DNA of 52,011 nt from Candidatus Omnitrophota bacterium (GTDB lineage: Bacteria; Omnitrophota; Gorgyraeia; Zapsychrales; Zapsychraceae). Location of the stretch: positions 166,364 through 218,374 of the forward strand of contig JAJDCB010000024.1 of assembly GCA_029261065.1 (NCBI GenBank), written 5' to 3'. Each line of letters opens with the position of its first letter. Within the stretch, counting starts at the first letter, position 1. A program made the position numbers and the translations under genes. Positions 8,821 to 36,116 of the stretch are shown here, piece by piece. The notes under the pieces were generated by a model that saw only the letters and a program-made list of their open reading frames with translations, ran no database searches and had not been told where the DNA came from.

Positions 8821-9549
8821 CTATTTCGAAATTGGTCTATTTGGATTATTATGAAGTCCACATTCTTTCTTCTCAGGAGACTCCCACCACCAACGTCCTG
8901 CGCGAATATCTTCTCCTTCTTTTACGGCACGCGTACAACTGGCACATCCAATACTAACAAACCCTTTATCATGCAAAGGGCTAACATCCACATCATTTTC
9001 TTTAATATATTGATGAACATCTTCTAACGACCAATCTGCTAAAGGATTAATCTTTATCTTTTGATTCCCCTCATCCCACTCAAATGTCTTTAATTCTGTT
9101 CGCGTCACAGATTGCTCCCGCCTTAAGCCTGTCATCCAAGCATCAACTTTTGATAATGCGCGCCTTAATGGTTGTACTTTACGAATCCCACAACATAATT
9201 TTCGATTTTCGATACTCTCATAAAATAAATCAATCCCTTTTTCTTCAACCATCTCTTCAACCGCCTTAGTATCGGGATAATAGATCTTAAAGGTAATAGG
9301 ATATTTCTTTTGCGTTTTAGCAATGAGCTGATAAGTCTCTTGAAACAATCGCCCTGTATCCAAAGTAAAAACCTCTAATTCAGGCGCCACCTTTGCAATC
9401 ATATCCGTAATCACCTGATCTTCTTCCCCAAGACTTGACGCAAAACTTAAACGATCACCAAACGCATCAAACCCCAACTTAATAATCTCCTGAGCCTTTA
9501 ACCCCGTCGCTTTTTCTTGAAGGTCTGTAAGCTTATCTTTTAATGTCAT
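8821..9549 (-). CDS. cysH: Phosphosulfate reductase, APS-type with Fe-S cysteines
   Basis: 242 residues of the CysH family: PP-loop SFASSLGEEDQV, the FTLDTGRLFQETY segment, and the C-terminal catalytic ECGLH (C230). The enzyme reduces the activated sulfate to sulfite. Two cysteine pairs, C119-C120 (LCCGIRK) and C202/C205 (GCASC), are the 4Fe-4S ligands of APS reductases and are absent from PAPS-only enzymes. APS is therefore the probable substrate, which agrees with the degenerate APS kinase half of the neighbouring CysNC. First gene of the cys operon; the start follows AAAGGA at a usual distance. Confidence 0.94.
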   Translation of the reverse strand: MTLKDKLTDLQEKATGLKAQEIIKLGFDAFGDRLSFASSLGEEDQVITDMIAKVAPELEVFTLDTGRLFQETYQLIAKTQKKYPITFKIYYPDTKAVEEMVEEKGIDLFYESIENRKLCCGIRKVQPLRRALSKVDAWMTGLRREQSVTRTELKTFEWDEGNQKIKINPLADWSLEDVHQYIKENDVDVSPLHDKGFVSIGCASCTRAVKEGEDIRAGRWWWESPEKKECGLHNNPNRPISK

Positions 9550-9603
9550 AATATTATTCCTTTACGTTTTAAATTAGCTAATTGAATGAAGCTTCACATA
9601 TCA

Positions 9604-9693
9604 AGCGGAATACTAGACCCTGTCCGGCTCAGACATTCGCCCTGGCCTTCTGGGCCGGGCTCAAACTCGCCTGACAGGGTCTAGTATTCCGCT
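9604..9693. repeat. Palindromic element copy 1: conserved core, variable perfect arms
   Basis: Arms 9604-9624 and 9673-9693 are perfect 21-bp inverted repeats enclosing a 48-nt core. Inside the core, CTGGCC (9642-9647) and GGCCGG (9653-9658) pair around the loop TTCTG. The core matches, in inverted orientation, the core of the element at 9763-9863, including CGGCTCAGA and GCTCAAACTCGCCT. The arms of the two copies are unrelated apart from the innermost CTGTC/GACAG. Neither side has the T-run of an intrinsic terminator. Element class unknown. Confidence 0.9.
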
Positions 9694-9762
9694 ATATAGC
9701 TAAATTTCACAAAAATTAGAAAACATTAAAAATTAACATTGTTATACTGCTAAATTCTTCCT

Positions 9763-9863
9763 AAAGACAGAACAGGCTAAAGTCTGTCAGGCGAGTTTGA
9801 GCATTTGCCCAGAAGGCAAAGGCGAATATCTGAGCCGGACAGACTTTAGCCTGTTCTGTCTTT
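9763..9863. repeat. Palindromic element copy 2: same core inverted, different perfect arms
   Basis: Arms 9763-9788 and 9838-9863 are perfect 26-bp inverted repeats around a 49-nt core. The core is the reverse complement of copy 1 with few changes. Its inner hairpin is TTTGCC (9804-9809) and GGCAAA (9815-9820) around CAGAA, so three of the six inner base pairs differ from copy 1 while pairing is kept. It begins 69 nt after copy 1 ends and stops 20 nt from the cysK stop codon. Confidence 0.9.
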
Positions 9864-9883
9864 CTGGCTCCCCTTGCAAGCTT

Positions 9884-30944: not shown

Positions 30945-33900
30945 TTAAAAAGCTACACAATCTGAGAAACAATTTAAGAATGTCTCTCCTGATTCACACA
31001 CATTATCTCCACAAGTGGCTCCAATCTGACATGAGCTATCACATCCATCTACAGGATCCGTATTACCATCATCACAGGATTCCCCTGATTCAACAATACT
31101 ATTACCACAAACAGATGCCGTTGTTCCTGTACATCCACTATTACATTGATTAGGCTGACCGTTCAATGAGGAACCATCATCACAAACCTCTGTACCATTG
31201 ATAACGGAATCTCCACAAAACTCTGTTGTACTACATGTACCAAACCCTGTACAGGAACCGTTACAACTTTCTGTTCCTGCATATCCAGTAGATGTTGTAC
31301 AGGATTGCGAGTTTGAATCGCACGTTTCGCCTAACCCTGCTTGGATAACACTATCTCCACAAATTTCTAGAACACAAGCACTACTACAACCATCCTCATT
31401 GGCTGTATTGCCATCATCACAACTCTCACCGGAATCAACGCTGCCATCTCCGCAGAAAGGATCAAACGAACAATCAGCGGCGCAACCATCGCCACCTACC
31501 GTATTCCCATCATCACAAGACTCACTAGGGTCAAGATTTCCATCTCCACAAAATGCTTCGACAACACATAGTGAAGAACAACCATCACCAGATACCGAGT
31601 TGCCATCATCACAGGCCTCACCCGAATCAATGATGCCATCTCCACAAAAAGGCTCAAGAACACAAACCGATGAACATCCGTCATTATTAAAGATGTTTCC
31701 ATCATCGCAACCCTCACCTGAATCAACGGTTCCATTACCACAAACCTCAGTTTGGCAACTTGAAGAACACCCATCCCCATTTGAAGTATTTCCATCATCA
31801 CAGCCTTCTCCACTTCCCACAACACTATCCCCACAAACAGGAATCACAACACATCCATCAATCGTGGTATCACGCGTTCCATTTGCATTACACCAGGCAA
31901 AAACACTTCCGGTACATCCCGTGGGGCAACTTGCTGGTACGATTCCAACTGGAGAAACTGGCAAAGTAGCATTTCCACAAGCCGTAACAACAACTAATTC
32001 GCCGCAAGCATTAGGAGATATTGCTGTTTGAAAGACATAATCGTCAGATGAAAACGTTCCATTTTGTAAATATTGTAAGGTGACATAAATAGGAGATCCA
32101 TCAATCGTTATAGATGAAACGGCAACTGAAGTACTTGTCCCCATCGCCTGGGCAAATATATCTGAGTCTCCTAGAGAGGTTCCAACCGTCAACCAAAACT
32201 GTGTCACACCAACGCTACTTGACCACTGAAAAGTTGTTGTCGGTAATGAGACTGTTGATGCTGGCGCCGGTGATGTAATCTCAGGAGAAACAATTGCGGT
32301 TGTAAAAACATAGGCTTGATCATTAAAGACGCCACTAATTTTTGAACGTAACGTCACATAAAATAAATTCCCTTGTAAAGGTAACTCTGAAATAGTGACA
32401 GATGTTGCAGTTCCTTGAGAGGAATCATACACATCTCCTGCTCCTGATGTGGTTCCAATCTTTAACCAATATTCTGTCACGCTTTTCCCTTGCGTCCAAC
32501 TAAACGTTGTTGTTGTCGTACTTAATGTTGTTCCTATGACTGGCGCCGTCAACGTTGCTGGCGTATCTGCTTGAAGTGTTGAATACATATAATCCCTGGT
32601 ATACCATTGCCCATTAATCTGCGTCCATAAACGAACATAAACAGGATTATCGTCAATAGGAACGATATTAGAAAGTGTCACCGACGTATTTGTTCCCTGG
32701 CTTGCTCCGTAAGTATCAAAATACGGTGGTGTTGAAACAGCTGAAAAACTTGTTCCTATTCCTAACCAATATTGTGTTACGTTTGTTCCAGCGCTCCACT
32801 GAAATGTGATGCTTGAGGAACTAAGAGTTGACGCATCGACAGGAGATGTAATCTTTCCTACATCAGCAACGGTCACTGTTACACGTTCAGTATCTGTCGC
32901 ACTACCTGAATCTGTGACCGTAAAATCGATTCCAAAGGAAGCCCCTAATTGAGCAATATCTGAAGTCCAAGAAAAATTCCCTGTGCCATCCCCATTGTCT
33001 GTAAAAGTCGCACCAATACTACTTAAAGCATTTCCATTATCCAGCAAAGCCGATAATGTTAAGGCATCTGCATTCGGATCTGTTGCTGCAACTGCAAAAC
33101 TTAAAACATCTCCATCAACCGTGAACTGAGAACCAATGGCTGTTAATATTGGAGGCAGATTAGCTGGTGTTACCGAAATTGTAATGGTTTCTTGATCAAG
33201 AAAGGTGTCAGGGTCTGTCGTCGTAAAAACAAGAGTTTGAGTTGTTCCGCTTTGTCCGAGAGCGGGTGTCCAAGAGAAACTTGCTGTGTTATCACCATTG
33301 TCTGTATATGTCGCTCCAATCGTTGAAAGCGGATTTGCATTGGATAAAAGAGCTGTCATTGTTGTTGTATCACTATTAGGATCTGTGGCTGTGACAGTAA
33401 AGGCTAAATTACTAGCTTCAACAACGCTTTTATTTCCAACGGATGTAAGCACAGGAGATACTGTTGTAAGAGTTAAGGCATTAAGTCCATTAATACGCCC
33501 ATAACCTGAATTAATATCAAAACCTGTTGTTTCAACATCATCTGCTGTTTTACGCAGAACGGTTCTTACCTTTTCATTACTATATGTAGGATATTCGGCT
33601 AAAATTAATGCCGCCAAGCCAGCAACATGTGGCGCTGCCATAGACGTTCCCTGCCATGAGCTGTATGTATTACTGGGGGTCGATGACCAAATACTAACTC
33701 CAGGGGCGGTAACATCTAATAAACTCCCATAGTTTGAAAATGTCGCTTTATTATCACTTTGATCAGAAGCGGCTACTGTAATTGTTGTCGATTTATTTTG
33801 AGGGCTATAATTTGCAACATCGTCCGTTTCATTTCCTGCAGAAAATACGACAACAACACCTAAACCATGCGCTGTTTGAACAGCAGATTCTGTCGTAGGA

Positions 33901-35849
33901 TTTGATGGACAAGGGTTTACACATCCCCAACTATTATTTATGACATCCACGCCGTTATTAGCTCCATAGACGATGGCCTCAGCAAGTTCTGAACTTAAAC
34001 CTGAACCATCATCCGATAGTGCTTTTAAGGGCATTATTTTCGCTTGCGGAGCAATACCAATAATACCAGTCGAATTATTACCTATCGCAGCAATTGTTCC
34101 TGAAACGTGTGTTCCATGTCCATGAACATCAGTTGGATTATTATCAGGTGATTTAGCAGTAACACAATTATCAAATGCATCATAGCTCACACATGTTGTA
34201 AAATCATAACCTCTTACATCATCAACATATCCATTACCATCCGAATCAGACCCATTTACGGTTTCACTCGTATTAGACCAAATATTAGTAACAAGATCCG
34301 AATGCACCCAGTCAACACCTGTATCAACAACACCCACAACAATTCCTAAACCTTGCTCAAGATCCCAAGCCGATTCCATCTGCATTTTTGTAACATTCCA
34401 TAGACTGCTATAAAAAGTATCATTAGGTGTTAAATCCGCTTTCATCACATAATCTGGATGAGCGTATTCAACGTGAGGATCATCGGAAAAAAGTTCACAA
34501 ACCTTCTCAATATCTAGATTCGCTGGAACCTCCATAACATAGGTATTTGTTAAATCAGGAGTTTGCGCACCTGGATCAATCCGTTCAGATCTATCGCTAA
34601 ATTTTGTTTTTGCGGTTTGTATCATCTGATCTAAATGCTGTTTTGCCTCATGTGTTGTTTTATTATGTTTCTTGAAAAACAACCCCTTAGCACCACTAAC
34701 CTTACAATGCGCATTAAGTTTATCAATCGAATCTGAGCCATCGGTAACAGCATCTTGAAATTTCTTATTTTTAGCTAGTAGACAATGTGCACATTCATTT
34801 AAAGCATGATCCCCTTCACTCTTAAACTTAATAACAAATCGTCCCTTTGCATGATTTAATTGTTGTGGTTCCTCTATTTGGGCATCATCCTCTATACTTT
34901 CATCTAAAATTCTTTCTCCCATTTGTTCTCCAACGCCCCCTCTGACAACAGGATCCACTGATGGCTGGGAATCGAACTCGGGTATTGAATCGGTTACTTC
35001 ACTAACATCCGCTAACAATACAACCTCCTCAATTTTTTTAACCTCTTGCTCAACTTGAATCTCTATACTCTCTACAACATCTTTCACCATTTCTAAAGCT
35101 GGCGATTGAAGCTCTTGGGTTTCCTCTATTACACCTTGTGTCTGTTCGGCAACGTCTTCAAAATAATCAACAAGAAAATCACTAAATTCTTCTTCATATC
35201 CGGTATTATCCTCAAGCTCTAAATGACTTGCTTGGGATTCTAAGCTCTCTGATTCTTGCGTTGCAACATCCAATGCCACAGCCCCTTCATTTGATGTTAT
35301 AGAAACAACTTCTAATTCCTCAAATGTATTATCATTTTTATTTTCTATTTCATTACTATTTTGGAAATAAACTTTCGTTACGCTTGAAGTATTTTGGGTG
35401 GGGGTATCAATTATATTTTCGTTTTGAACATCGTTAAACGCAAAACTATCAAAATCTTCTTCTATATCATCAAAGTGTGTCGTTTCTATATTTTGAAAAG
35501 TTACATCAACAGATACATCATCTTGCTGATTCTCTTTAACATTAGTAGTTTGTAAAAAAAGACTCTCATTTTCTTCATCAACCTCGCCAACAGCTACAAT
35601 AGATATACGAATGACGTCTTCAATGGTATTGGTCTCAACGACTGAGGCAAACTCTAGATTATCATAATCAATATTTTCTGCTATAGGCGCCTTAACAAAA
35701 TTCACGTAAGCATCCCTTAGAGAGGTCATTTGTTCTATCGTATATTCTTTAAAATTCTCAACCTGACTTGAAGATAGCGTTGCAAACAAAAAAAGAAACA
35801 TCACACAAAACAGACCAATTTTGGTCCAAATAATCGCTTTATTTTCCAT
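30945..35849 (-). CDS. Very large exported subtilase with Ig-like repeats and a DUF4215 Cys-rich C-terminus
   Basis: About 1634 residues from ATG 35849, chosen because AAAGGA lies 9 bases upstream (a GTG at 35873 has no such site). Order: signal peptide (IGLFCVMFLFLFATLSSS); a strongly acidic Glu/Asp/Val-rich stretch to about 330; an I9-like propeptide (GRFVIKFKSEG to PHVEYAHPDY); peptidase S8 with D509 (GVVDTGVDW), H578 (HGHGTHVSG) and S736 (GTSMAAPHVAG); two putative Ig-like domains; three related modules starting ITSP or LTAP with FQWS/FSWT; then from about 1335 to the end tandem Cys-rich DUF4215-type units (CDDGN...DGCSS). Secreted or surface proteolysis is expected. No sorting anchor was recognised. 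Confidence 0.93.
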   Translation of the reverse strand: MENKAIIWTKIGLFCVMFLFLFATLSSSQVENFKEYTIEQMTSLRDAYVNFVKAPIAENIDYDNLEFASVVETNTIEDVIRISIVAVGEVDEENESLFLQTTNVKENQQDDVSVDVTFQNIETTHFDDIEEDFDSFAFNDVQNENIIDTPTQNTSSVTKVYFQNSNEIENKNDNTFEELEVVSITSNEGAVALDVATQESESLESQASHLELEDNTGYEEEFSDFLVDYFEDVAEQTQGVIEETQELQSPALEMVKDVVESIEIQVEQEVKKIEEVVLLADVSEVTDSIPEFDSQPSVDPVVRGGVGEQMGERILDESIEDDAQIEEPQQLNHAKGRFVIKFKSEGDHALNECAHCLLAKNKKFQDAVTDGSDSIDKLNAHCKVSGAKGLFFKKHNKTTHEAKQHLDQMIQTAKTKFSDRSERIDPGAQTPDLTNTYVMEVPANLDIEKVCELFSDDPHVEYAHPDYVMKADLTPNDTFYSSLWNVTKMQMESAWDLEQGLGIVVGVVDTGVDWVHSDLVTNIWSNTSETVNGSDSDGNGYVDDVRGYDFTTCVSYDAFDNCVTAKSPDNNPTDVHGHGTHVSGTIAAIGNNSTGIIGIAPQAKIMPLKALSDDGSGLSSELAEAIVYGANNGVDVINNSWGCVNPCPSNPTTESAVQTAHGLGVVVVFSAGNETDDVANYSPQNKSTTITVAASDQSDNKATFSNYGSLLDVTAPGVSIWSSTPSNTYSSWQGTSMAAPHVAGLAALILAEYPTYSNEKVRTVLRKTADDVETTGFDINSGYGRINGLNALTLTTVSPVLTSVGNKSVVEASNLAFTVTATDPNSDTTTMTALLSNANPLSTIGATYTDNGDNTASFSWTPALGQSGTTQTLVFTTTDPDTFLDQETITISVTPANLPPILTAIGSQFTVDGDVLSFAVAATDPNADALTLSALLDNGNALSSIGATFTDNGDGTGNFSWTSDIAQLGASFGIDFTVTDSGSATDTERVTVTVADVGKITSPVDASTLSSSSITFQWSAGTNVTQYWLGIGTSFSAVSTPPYFDTYGASQGTNTSVTLSNIVPIDDNPVYVRLWTQINGQWYTRDYMYSTLQADTPATLTAPVIGTTLSTTTTTFSWTQGKSVTEYWLKIGTTSGAGDVYDSSQGTATSVTISELPLQGNLFYVTLRSKISGVFNDQAYVFTTAIVSPEITSPAPASTVSLPTTTFQWSSSVGVTQFWLTVGTSLGDSDIFAQAMGTSTSVAVSSITIDGSPIYVTLQYLQNGTFSSDDYVFQTAISPNACGELVVVTACGNATLPVSPVGIVPASCPTGCTGSVFAWCNANGTRDTTIDGCVVIPVCGDSVVGSGEGCDDGNTSNGDGCSSSCQTEVCGNGTVDSGEGCDDGNIFNNDGCSSVCVLEPFCGDGIIDSGEACDDGNSVSGDGCSSLCVVEAFCGDGNLDPSESCDDGNTVGGDGCAADCSFDPFCGDGSVDSGESCDDGNTANEDGCSSACVLEICGDSVIQAGLGETCDSNSQSCTTSTGYAGTESCNGSCTGFGTCSTTEFCGDSVINGTEVCDDGSSLNGQPNQCNSGCTGTTASVCGNSIVESGESCDDGNTDPVDGCDSSCQIGATCGDNVCESGETFLNCFSDCVAF

Positions 35850-36116
35850 GTTTAACGTCCTTTTTAATGACACAATTATTGCTTATAACTACACTCTAAA
35901 TATGCCATTTATGGTTGTATTTGCAATAGGTTATGATATCTACGAGAAAGCGTTTTCTCGCATTGAGACAAAAATTTTCTAACTATTGTAAGGTTAAAGA
36001 GTTTAACTCGTAATTAAAAAGTAAGGTGTTTGAATTTTTTAAAAATTATTGTAAATTGTTTTTAAAGGGTAAGAAAATGGTAGGAATACCACTCATAACT
36101 GCGGTATTTATTTGAT
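35850..36116. other. 267-bp intergenic stretch upstream of the subtilase
   Basis: AT-rich. Contains a short hairpin CGAGAAA-GCGT-TTTCTCG (35943-35960) without a T-run, and AATACC...GGTATT (6 bp) just after the preceding gene's stop. A weak TTGCAA-18-TATTTA pair is the only promoter candidate for the subtilase. Nothing else seen. Confidence 0.5.

Follow-up and report, generated by a model that had tools for sequence, protein, structure and literature searches.

When the paired positions of a stem covary, a functional RNA is normally considered proven, and it is this assumption that is at stake here. The closest described systems are made of DNA. REPs (defined in PMC8266576 and PMC3733652) are palindromes of 20–50 nt (PMC8266576); with REPINs and BIMEs, they are short, intergenic, many-copy, mobile but non-autonomous palindromes that often occur in opposed pairs and often just after stop codons, carry a fixed GTAG/CGTC tag, and flank RAYT genes. 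In attC sites, which also lie just after stop codons, a folded single strand is recognised by its structure; the outer R/L boxes are conserved and another part is variable. The ends of IS200/IS605 elements, and of the derived MITEs (PATEs), are strand-specific hairpins with a replication polarity, recognised by loop and mismatch (see also PMC8266576). A different kind of precedent is polymerase template switching between inverted repeats, which homogenises their arms and inverts the spacer (PMC8604942), is strand-biased in E. coli (PMC7202029), and, according to one proposal, creates stems and also maintains them (PMC8794818). Such quasipalindrome correction has been described in E. coli lacZ reporters, in yeast and in rRNA stems, where it is a mutational process at incidental palindromes.

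The locus studied here lies in a 52,011-nt stretch of DNA from a Candidatus Omnitrophota bacterium (hereafter the window), in the spacer between a cysK-like and a cysH-like gene. Its features are as follows.

8821–9549, minus strand: downstream gene, PAPS reductase family, cysH-like (PF01507, E = 1.6e-49)
9588–9877, no strand: candidate mobile unit, consisting of the opposed hairpin pair, the AT-rich spacer and short outer flanks
9604–9693, minus strand: hairpin 1, core GCGAGTT..TGTCTGAGC on the minus strand; perfect 21-bp arms at 9604–9624 and 9673–9693, core at 9625–9672
9642–9658, minus strand: inner hairpin of hairpin 1, reading CTGGCC-TTCTG-GGCCGG on the plus strand and covarying with the inner hairpin of hairpin 2
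9694–9762, no strand: AT-rich spacer between the 5' sides of the hairpins, alignable to the spacer of a sister unit on contig C33
9763–9863, plus strand: hairpin 2, core GCGAGTT..TATCTGAGC on the plus strand; perfect 26-bp arms at 9763–9788 and 9838–9863, core at 9789–9837
9804–9820, plus strand: inner hairpin of hairpin 2, TTTGCC-CAGAA-GGCAAA
9884–10816, minus strand: upstream gene, PLP-dependent cysteine synthase, cysK-like (PF00291, E = 2.9e-75)

An earlier, sequence-only reading had described the positions, the perfect 21- and 26-bp arms, the oppositely oriented core of about 48 nt and the inner hairpin that covaries, and all were reproduced. The two hairpins are opposed, with their 5' sides facing each other, and the fold of the region has an energy of −131 kcal/mol (z = −11.9), a value equalled by none of 200 shuffles. 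That reading had counted two copies of an element. Both hairpins are real, but the unit is the pair and not two independent copies: when the window unit is aligned with C33:7929–8215, where the gene context is different, the two are 79.7% identical over 296 columns, and homology begins and ends at 9588 and 9877, a length of 290 bp, with divergent sequence outside. The cysK-cysH spacer is 334 nt long in the window and 44 nt after removal of the unit. The comparison with orthologous spacers that had been proposed found them without the element in two genomes belonging to the family of the window's genome, at only 12 nt (G063) and 29 nt (G050), and therefore the pair is an addition to an operon spacer that is otherwise tight.

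We searched the 2.71-Mb genome that holds the window with the core pattern GCGAGTT..T(G)TCTGAGC and, as the sequence-only reading had suggested, with a covariance model. About 19 hairpins were found, with arms of 20–37 bp that are almost all perfect and mutually unrelated; the reversed control pattern gave no match. The pattern search yielded one further opposed pair, C33:7938–8204. Relatives contained further copies, again with a fixed core and variable arms. The earlier proposal thus gained from both outcomes on which it had staked itself, the existence of more copies and the absence of arm conservation.

The arms keep their complementarity and not their sequence, as had been claimed. In the window's genome 99.0% of arm pairs are Watson-Crick and 3 of 403 are G.T, while identity between copies is 30%, which is near random. 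The further claim that the arms bear no similarity to one another holds within the window pair; the corresponding hairpins in the sister unit are clearly homologous, and their changes are compensated. Between the arms of these two units, 15 pairs have changed on both sides and 3 on one side, two of the latter being at the outermost pair, and none by way of a G.T wobble. When the four hairpins of both units are taken together, 18 of 26 outer-arm pairs carry changes on both sides, and their covariation score was reached by none of 500 shuffles and collapsed in slid controls.

Two other arrangements in this genome were considered and rejected. The ends of contigs C9 and C24 do not represent a recent inversion; they are apparently one hairpin split across contigs, with a 34-nt overlap of the core, at which the assembler halted. 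Such halting at palindromes means that these repeats are under-counted in short-read genomes. The hairpins that flank 7 kb on C12 and 3 kb on C19 do not form a composite transposon, since they enclose no transposase; the genes between them are ordinary glycan, algI-like and SGNH-like genes.

Among Omnitrophota, the core pattern was present in 19 of 384 genomes (3 hits for the control), among them G124 with 39 copies and G288 with 18; 24 of 150 Coriobacteriia genomes also carried it. One core subtype was scanned through 85,000 named species genomes, and among the matches listed most were Coriobacteriia, with others from Omnitrophota, Lachnospiraceae, Chloroflexi, Dormiibacterota, Bdellovibrionales and Phycisphaerales. 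A phage origin was rejected (the core occurred in only 12 of 2.9 million viral contigs), no plasmid matched the core, and a literature search on the core sequence returned unrelated matches only. The repeat family, apparently undescribed, spans Omnitrophota, Coriobacteriia and other groups, its many copies lying in unrelated gene contexts.

Across these copies the conserved part is an internal loop, GCGAGTT / TGTCTGAGC, and the variable parts are the inner hairpin and the outer arms. The conserved tip measures about 35–50 nt and the arms 11–50 nt (mode 20); the hairpins are 80–130 nt long. By our own arm score, the outer arms were paired in 124 of 182 cores, as compared with none of 676 control placements, and 96.1% of outer-arm pairs were Watson-Crick over 147 distinct hairpins from many genomes. 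In G124 the figure was 98.1%, with 2 wobbles in 483 pairs. Despite this near-perfect pairing, copies are only 30–44% alike in their arms in the window's genome and G124. Opposed pairs recur in Olsenella and other Atopobiaceae; other genomes often have single hairpins. With crude ORF calls, the median distance between the 3' side of a hairpin and the stop codon of a convergent gene is 19.5 nt; on the 5' side the next gene is about 160 nt away.

How can arms diverge so freely and remain complementary? The sequence-only reading had offered an element that copies flanking DNA as an inverted duplicate. The part of this idea concerned with copying fared well. Slow compensatory evolution should leave many intermediates, and one-sided or wobble intermediates are few in the window's genome; copying therefore explains the arms better than slow compensatory selection. 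Inversion of the core at orthologous loci points the same way. At two orthologous sites the tip is inverted between homologous arms, in L179 relative to L121 and L181 (flanks aligned within 1–2 nt) and in L126 relative to L162. Comparison of orthologous sites often shows an inner arm that is retained and an outer arm that has been replaced and yet is paired, although register shifts inflate some of these counts. The other part, that arms are made anew from the flank at insertion, finds no support in the data. Identity over the inner 12 arm positions ranges from 0.44 to 1.0 within G124, Olsenella, Gordonibacter-like genomes and G405 (0.30 in the window's genome). Arms homologous across loci in these four genomes or genera, and in the sister unit, indicate that the element carries its arms along when it moves and that they are rewritten afterwards.

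Changes on both sides with few one-sided intermediates, together with spacer inversion at orthologous sites, form the signature of an inverted repeat maintained by template switching, and both are seen here. The resemblance to quasipalindrome correction extends to arm homogenisation, spacer inversion and strand bias, except that here the process seemingly acts on a dispersed element family whose arms are free to drift. From this comparison of sequences we infer that template switching may be at work on these arms, and the arms probably stay complementary as DNA polymerase copies one from the other. Near-perfect covariation, almost without wobble, combined with loop inversion points to arm copying at the DNA level in a large natural set, and it becomes possible in bacteria to test directly whether template switching makes and maintains stems, a role that is under debate.

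A family of structured RNAs, also raised in the sequence-only reading, would account for a conserved internal loop with free stems: the GCGAGTT strand would be transcribed as an sRNA or UTR element, its tip would bind a protein, and compensatory substitutions would keep the stem. Mismatches on the GCGAGTT strand speak to this reading, with G.T exceeding A.C by 76:12 in 120 hairpins and 88:16 in 147, whatever the direction of the neighbouring genes, an excess that derives from Coriobacteriia and other non-Omnitrophota copies partly related to one another. More G.T than A.C on the GCGAGTT strand means that this is the strand that folds. The ratio is 2:5 in G124 and 3:0 in the window's genome; outside these two genomes the excess suggests selection on one folded strand, either RNA or single-stranded DNA. 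A simple role in mRNA 3' UTRs was rejected, as the wobble asymmetry is unrelated to gene direction. The near-absence of wobble in Omnitrophota (the 3 of 403 and 2 of 483 pairs given above) fits an RNA less well. In Rfam 15, no model scored above gathering threshold (the window region gave only sub-threshold plant miRNA models), and none of 8 other carrier loci matched. The copies have no promoter or terminator pattern in common. Intrinsic terminators were likewise rejected: a run of at least 5 T within 8 nt after the 3' arm occurred in 0 of 133 hairpins, compared with 11 of 133 on the other strand (6.3 expected), and a terminator scan of the window was at chance. Inversion of the tip would, moreover, swap the coding strand, which counts against an RNA.

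Orientation relative to replication provided further evidence. In five genomes with mostly single copies, the GCGAGTT strand coincided 36 times out of 38 with the C-rich (lagging) strand: in G124 it lay opposite the local G-rich strand in all 17 hairpins tested (20-kb regions), and in G481, G544, G548 and G405 combined it did so in 19 of 21. The copies of G405 occupy one strand per contig (8/8, 2/2, 2/2 and 2/2). The direction of the nearest gene is mixed (10:4) and explains less than the replication strand does. RNA genes would not be expected to take their orientation from replication independently of genes; a process at the fork agrees with such a polarity. With this poorer fit to strand polarity, we regard a structured RNA as rather unlikely. 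One feature that would suit an RNA was seen in G124 (20-kb loci L257–L276), where a second hairpin with a fixed heptaloop, CTCGATG, and a free stem of about 13 bp lies 63–76 nt 5' of nearly every core hairpin; the unpaired linkers are C/A-rich with few G.

The better-folding GCGAGTT strand is the leading-strand template. The same polarity, seen in G124 and Eggerthellaceae-type genomes, would be expected of an attC-like recombination site, or of a DNA structure used in fork restart, pausing or segregation, with its orientation fixed for function; a folded strand on the leading-strand template is also the orientation that limits attC folding (PMC8191803). The resemblance to attC comprises the folded single strand, structural recognition, a variable part and the position just after stop codons. 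Here, however, the tip is conserved and not the outer boxes, and the arms are long and perfect. The outer R boxes (RYYYAAC/GTTRRRY) are absent, the outer arms having no sequence in common, and no integron integrase (TIGR02249) exceeded the cut-off in any of 7 carrier genomes, sub-threshold hits being as in controls; attC had been set aside in the sequence-only reading, where its core boxes were not seen. Cassette arrays are absent, the window's genome, which is rich in pairs, has no polarity, and the patchy distribution of the family would be odd for a core replication function. We consider an attC-like site or a replication-fork structure very improbable.

Evidence for mobility came from several genomes. 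In Atopobiaceae, L136 and L180 carry an opposed pair of about 180–200 nt where L156 has 18–23 nt, with flanks about 92% identical. Copies at different loci of G405 have in common their arms and about 160–220 bp of surrounding sequence. Neither a target-site duplication nor a terminal repeat beyond the hairpins was found, and the cleanest "empty" sites show differences beyond the element itself.

A REP/REPIN-type element moved by the genome's own RAYT (TnpA-REP, a Y1 HUH transposase) would be intergenic, often near stop codons, and in opposed pairs like those of REPINs and BIMEs, all of which applies here, and 11 of the 12 carrier genomes tested have Y1 genes (PF01797). Yet the fixed GTAG/CGTC tag is absent: GTAG or GGAG within 10 nt of the 5' arm was found in 15 of 133 hairpins (6.2 expected), CTAC or CTCC after the 3' arm in 10 of 133 (9.6 expected), and CGTC or GACG in 22 (17.2 expected). 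In this family it is the tip that is conserved and not the stem; the arms are unrelated between copies, and the hairpins, at 80–130 nt, exceed the 20–50 nt of REPs (PMC8266576). The core was found within 1.5 kb of none of 27 Y1 loci in 11 genomes, and no transposase or recombinase was tied to the element, though it may be an IS200/IS605-derived MITE with a distant autonomous Y1 (TnpA) parent. Several Y1 genes are flanked instead by other, short palindromes. A REP/REPIN proper is therefore improbable in our estimation, although in its workings the element would come closest to a REPIN, one whose tip is conserved and whose arms are free. In two core hairpins of G124 (L263 and L276), the tip contains palindromes GTGACAGTCAC that resemble the ones next to this genome's Y1/RAYT gene; this suggests that REPs also insert into hairpin loops.

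The explanation that we prefer, and hold on balance to be probable, is a dispersed, non-autonomous mobile DNA hairpin element whose tip is recognised and whose arms are kept complementary mainly at the DNA level. The tip, with its GCGAGTT / TGTCTGAGC loop and free inner hairpin, would be recognised as folded single-stranded DNA by a trans-acting enzyme, and we read its conservation as the result of such recognition. For the outer arms, complementarity would suffice and the sequence would be free. A polymerase crossing the palindrome would switch template from arm to arm, which would turn single mutations into matched double changes, could rewrite the outer arm, and would sometimes invert the tip. 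Several findings weigh against this explanation, including the lack of a linked enzyme and of target-site duplications and the G.T excess on the GCGAGTT strand described above. As compared with IS200/IS605-type elements, whose active strand is on the lagging-strand template, the GCGAGTT strand is on the leading-strand template, which counts against mobile single-stranded DNA, and no TnpA adjoins the copies at the 27 Y1 loci. Strand polarity is also missing from the window's genome, where copies are paired. Dispersed palindromic mobile repeats are of a known kind, and the unusual mode of evolution may be the real novelty. The fuller proposal of an undescribed mobile DNA family in several phyla, with a recognised tip, arbitrary arms, complementarity maintained by template switching and a polarity set by the fork (strict in some genomes), is one that we put forward tentatively.

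Several further arrangements were noted. Elsewhere in the window, the minus strand at 30945–35873 encodes a subtilase of 1642 aa with DUF4215 repeats (PF00082, PF13948). Entire hairpins are nested, in either orientation, inside the apical loop of another copy (L055, L056, L027:1701–1900, L042, L113 and L169). At contig ends of G288 (L052, L067, L079 and L089) there are signs of recent amplification, the 18 copies having identical arms; these copies are embedded among longer repeats in a mosaic at which the assembly breaks and which is too tangled for unit ends to be placed. In Lachnospiraceae (L167, L174 and L185) the core recurs in direct orientation at a spacing of about 200 bp; a short GCCA/TGGC pairing is followed, outside it, by ..CTGCAGGGAT / CCCTGCAG...
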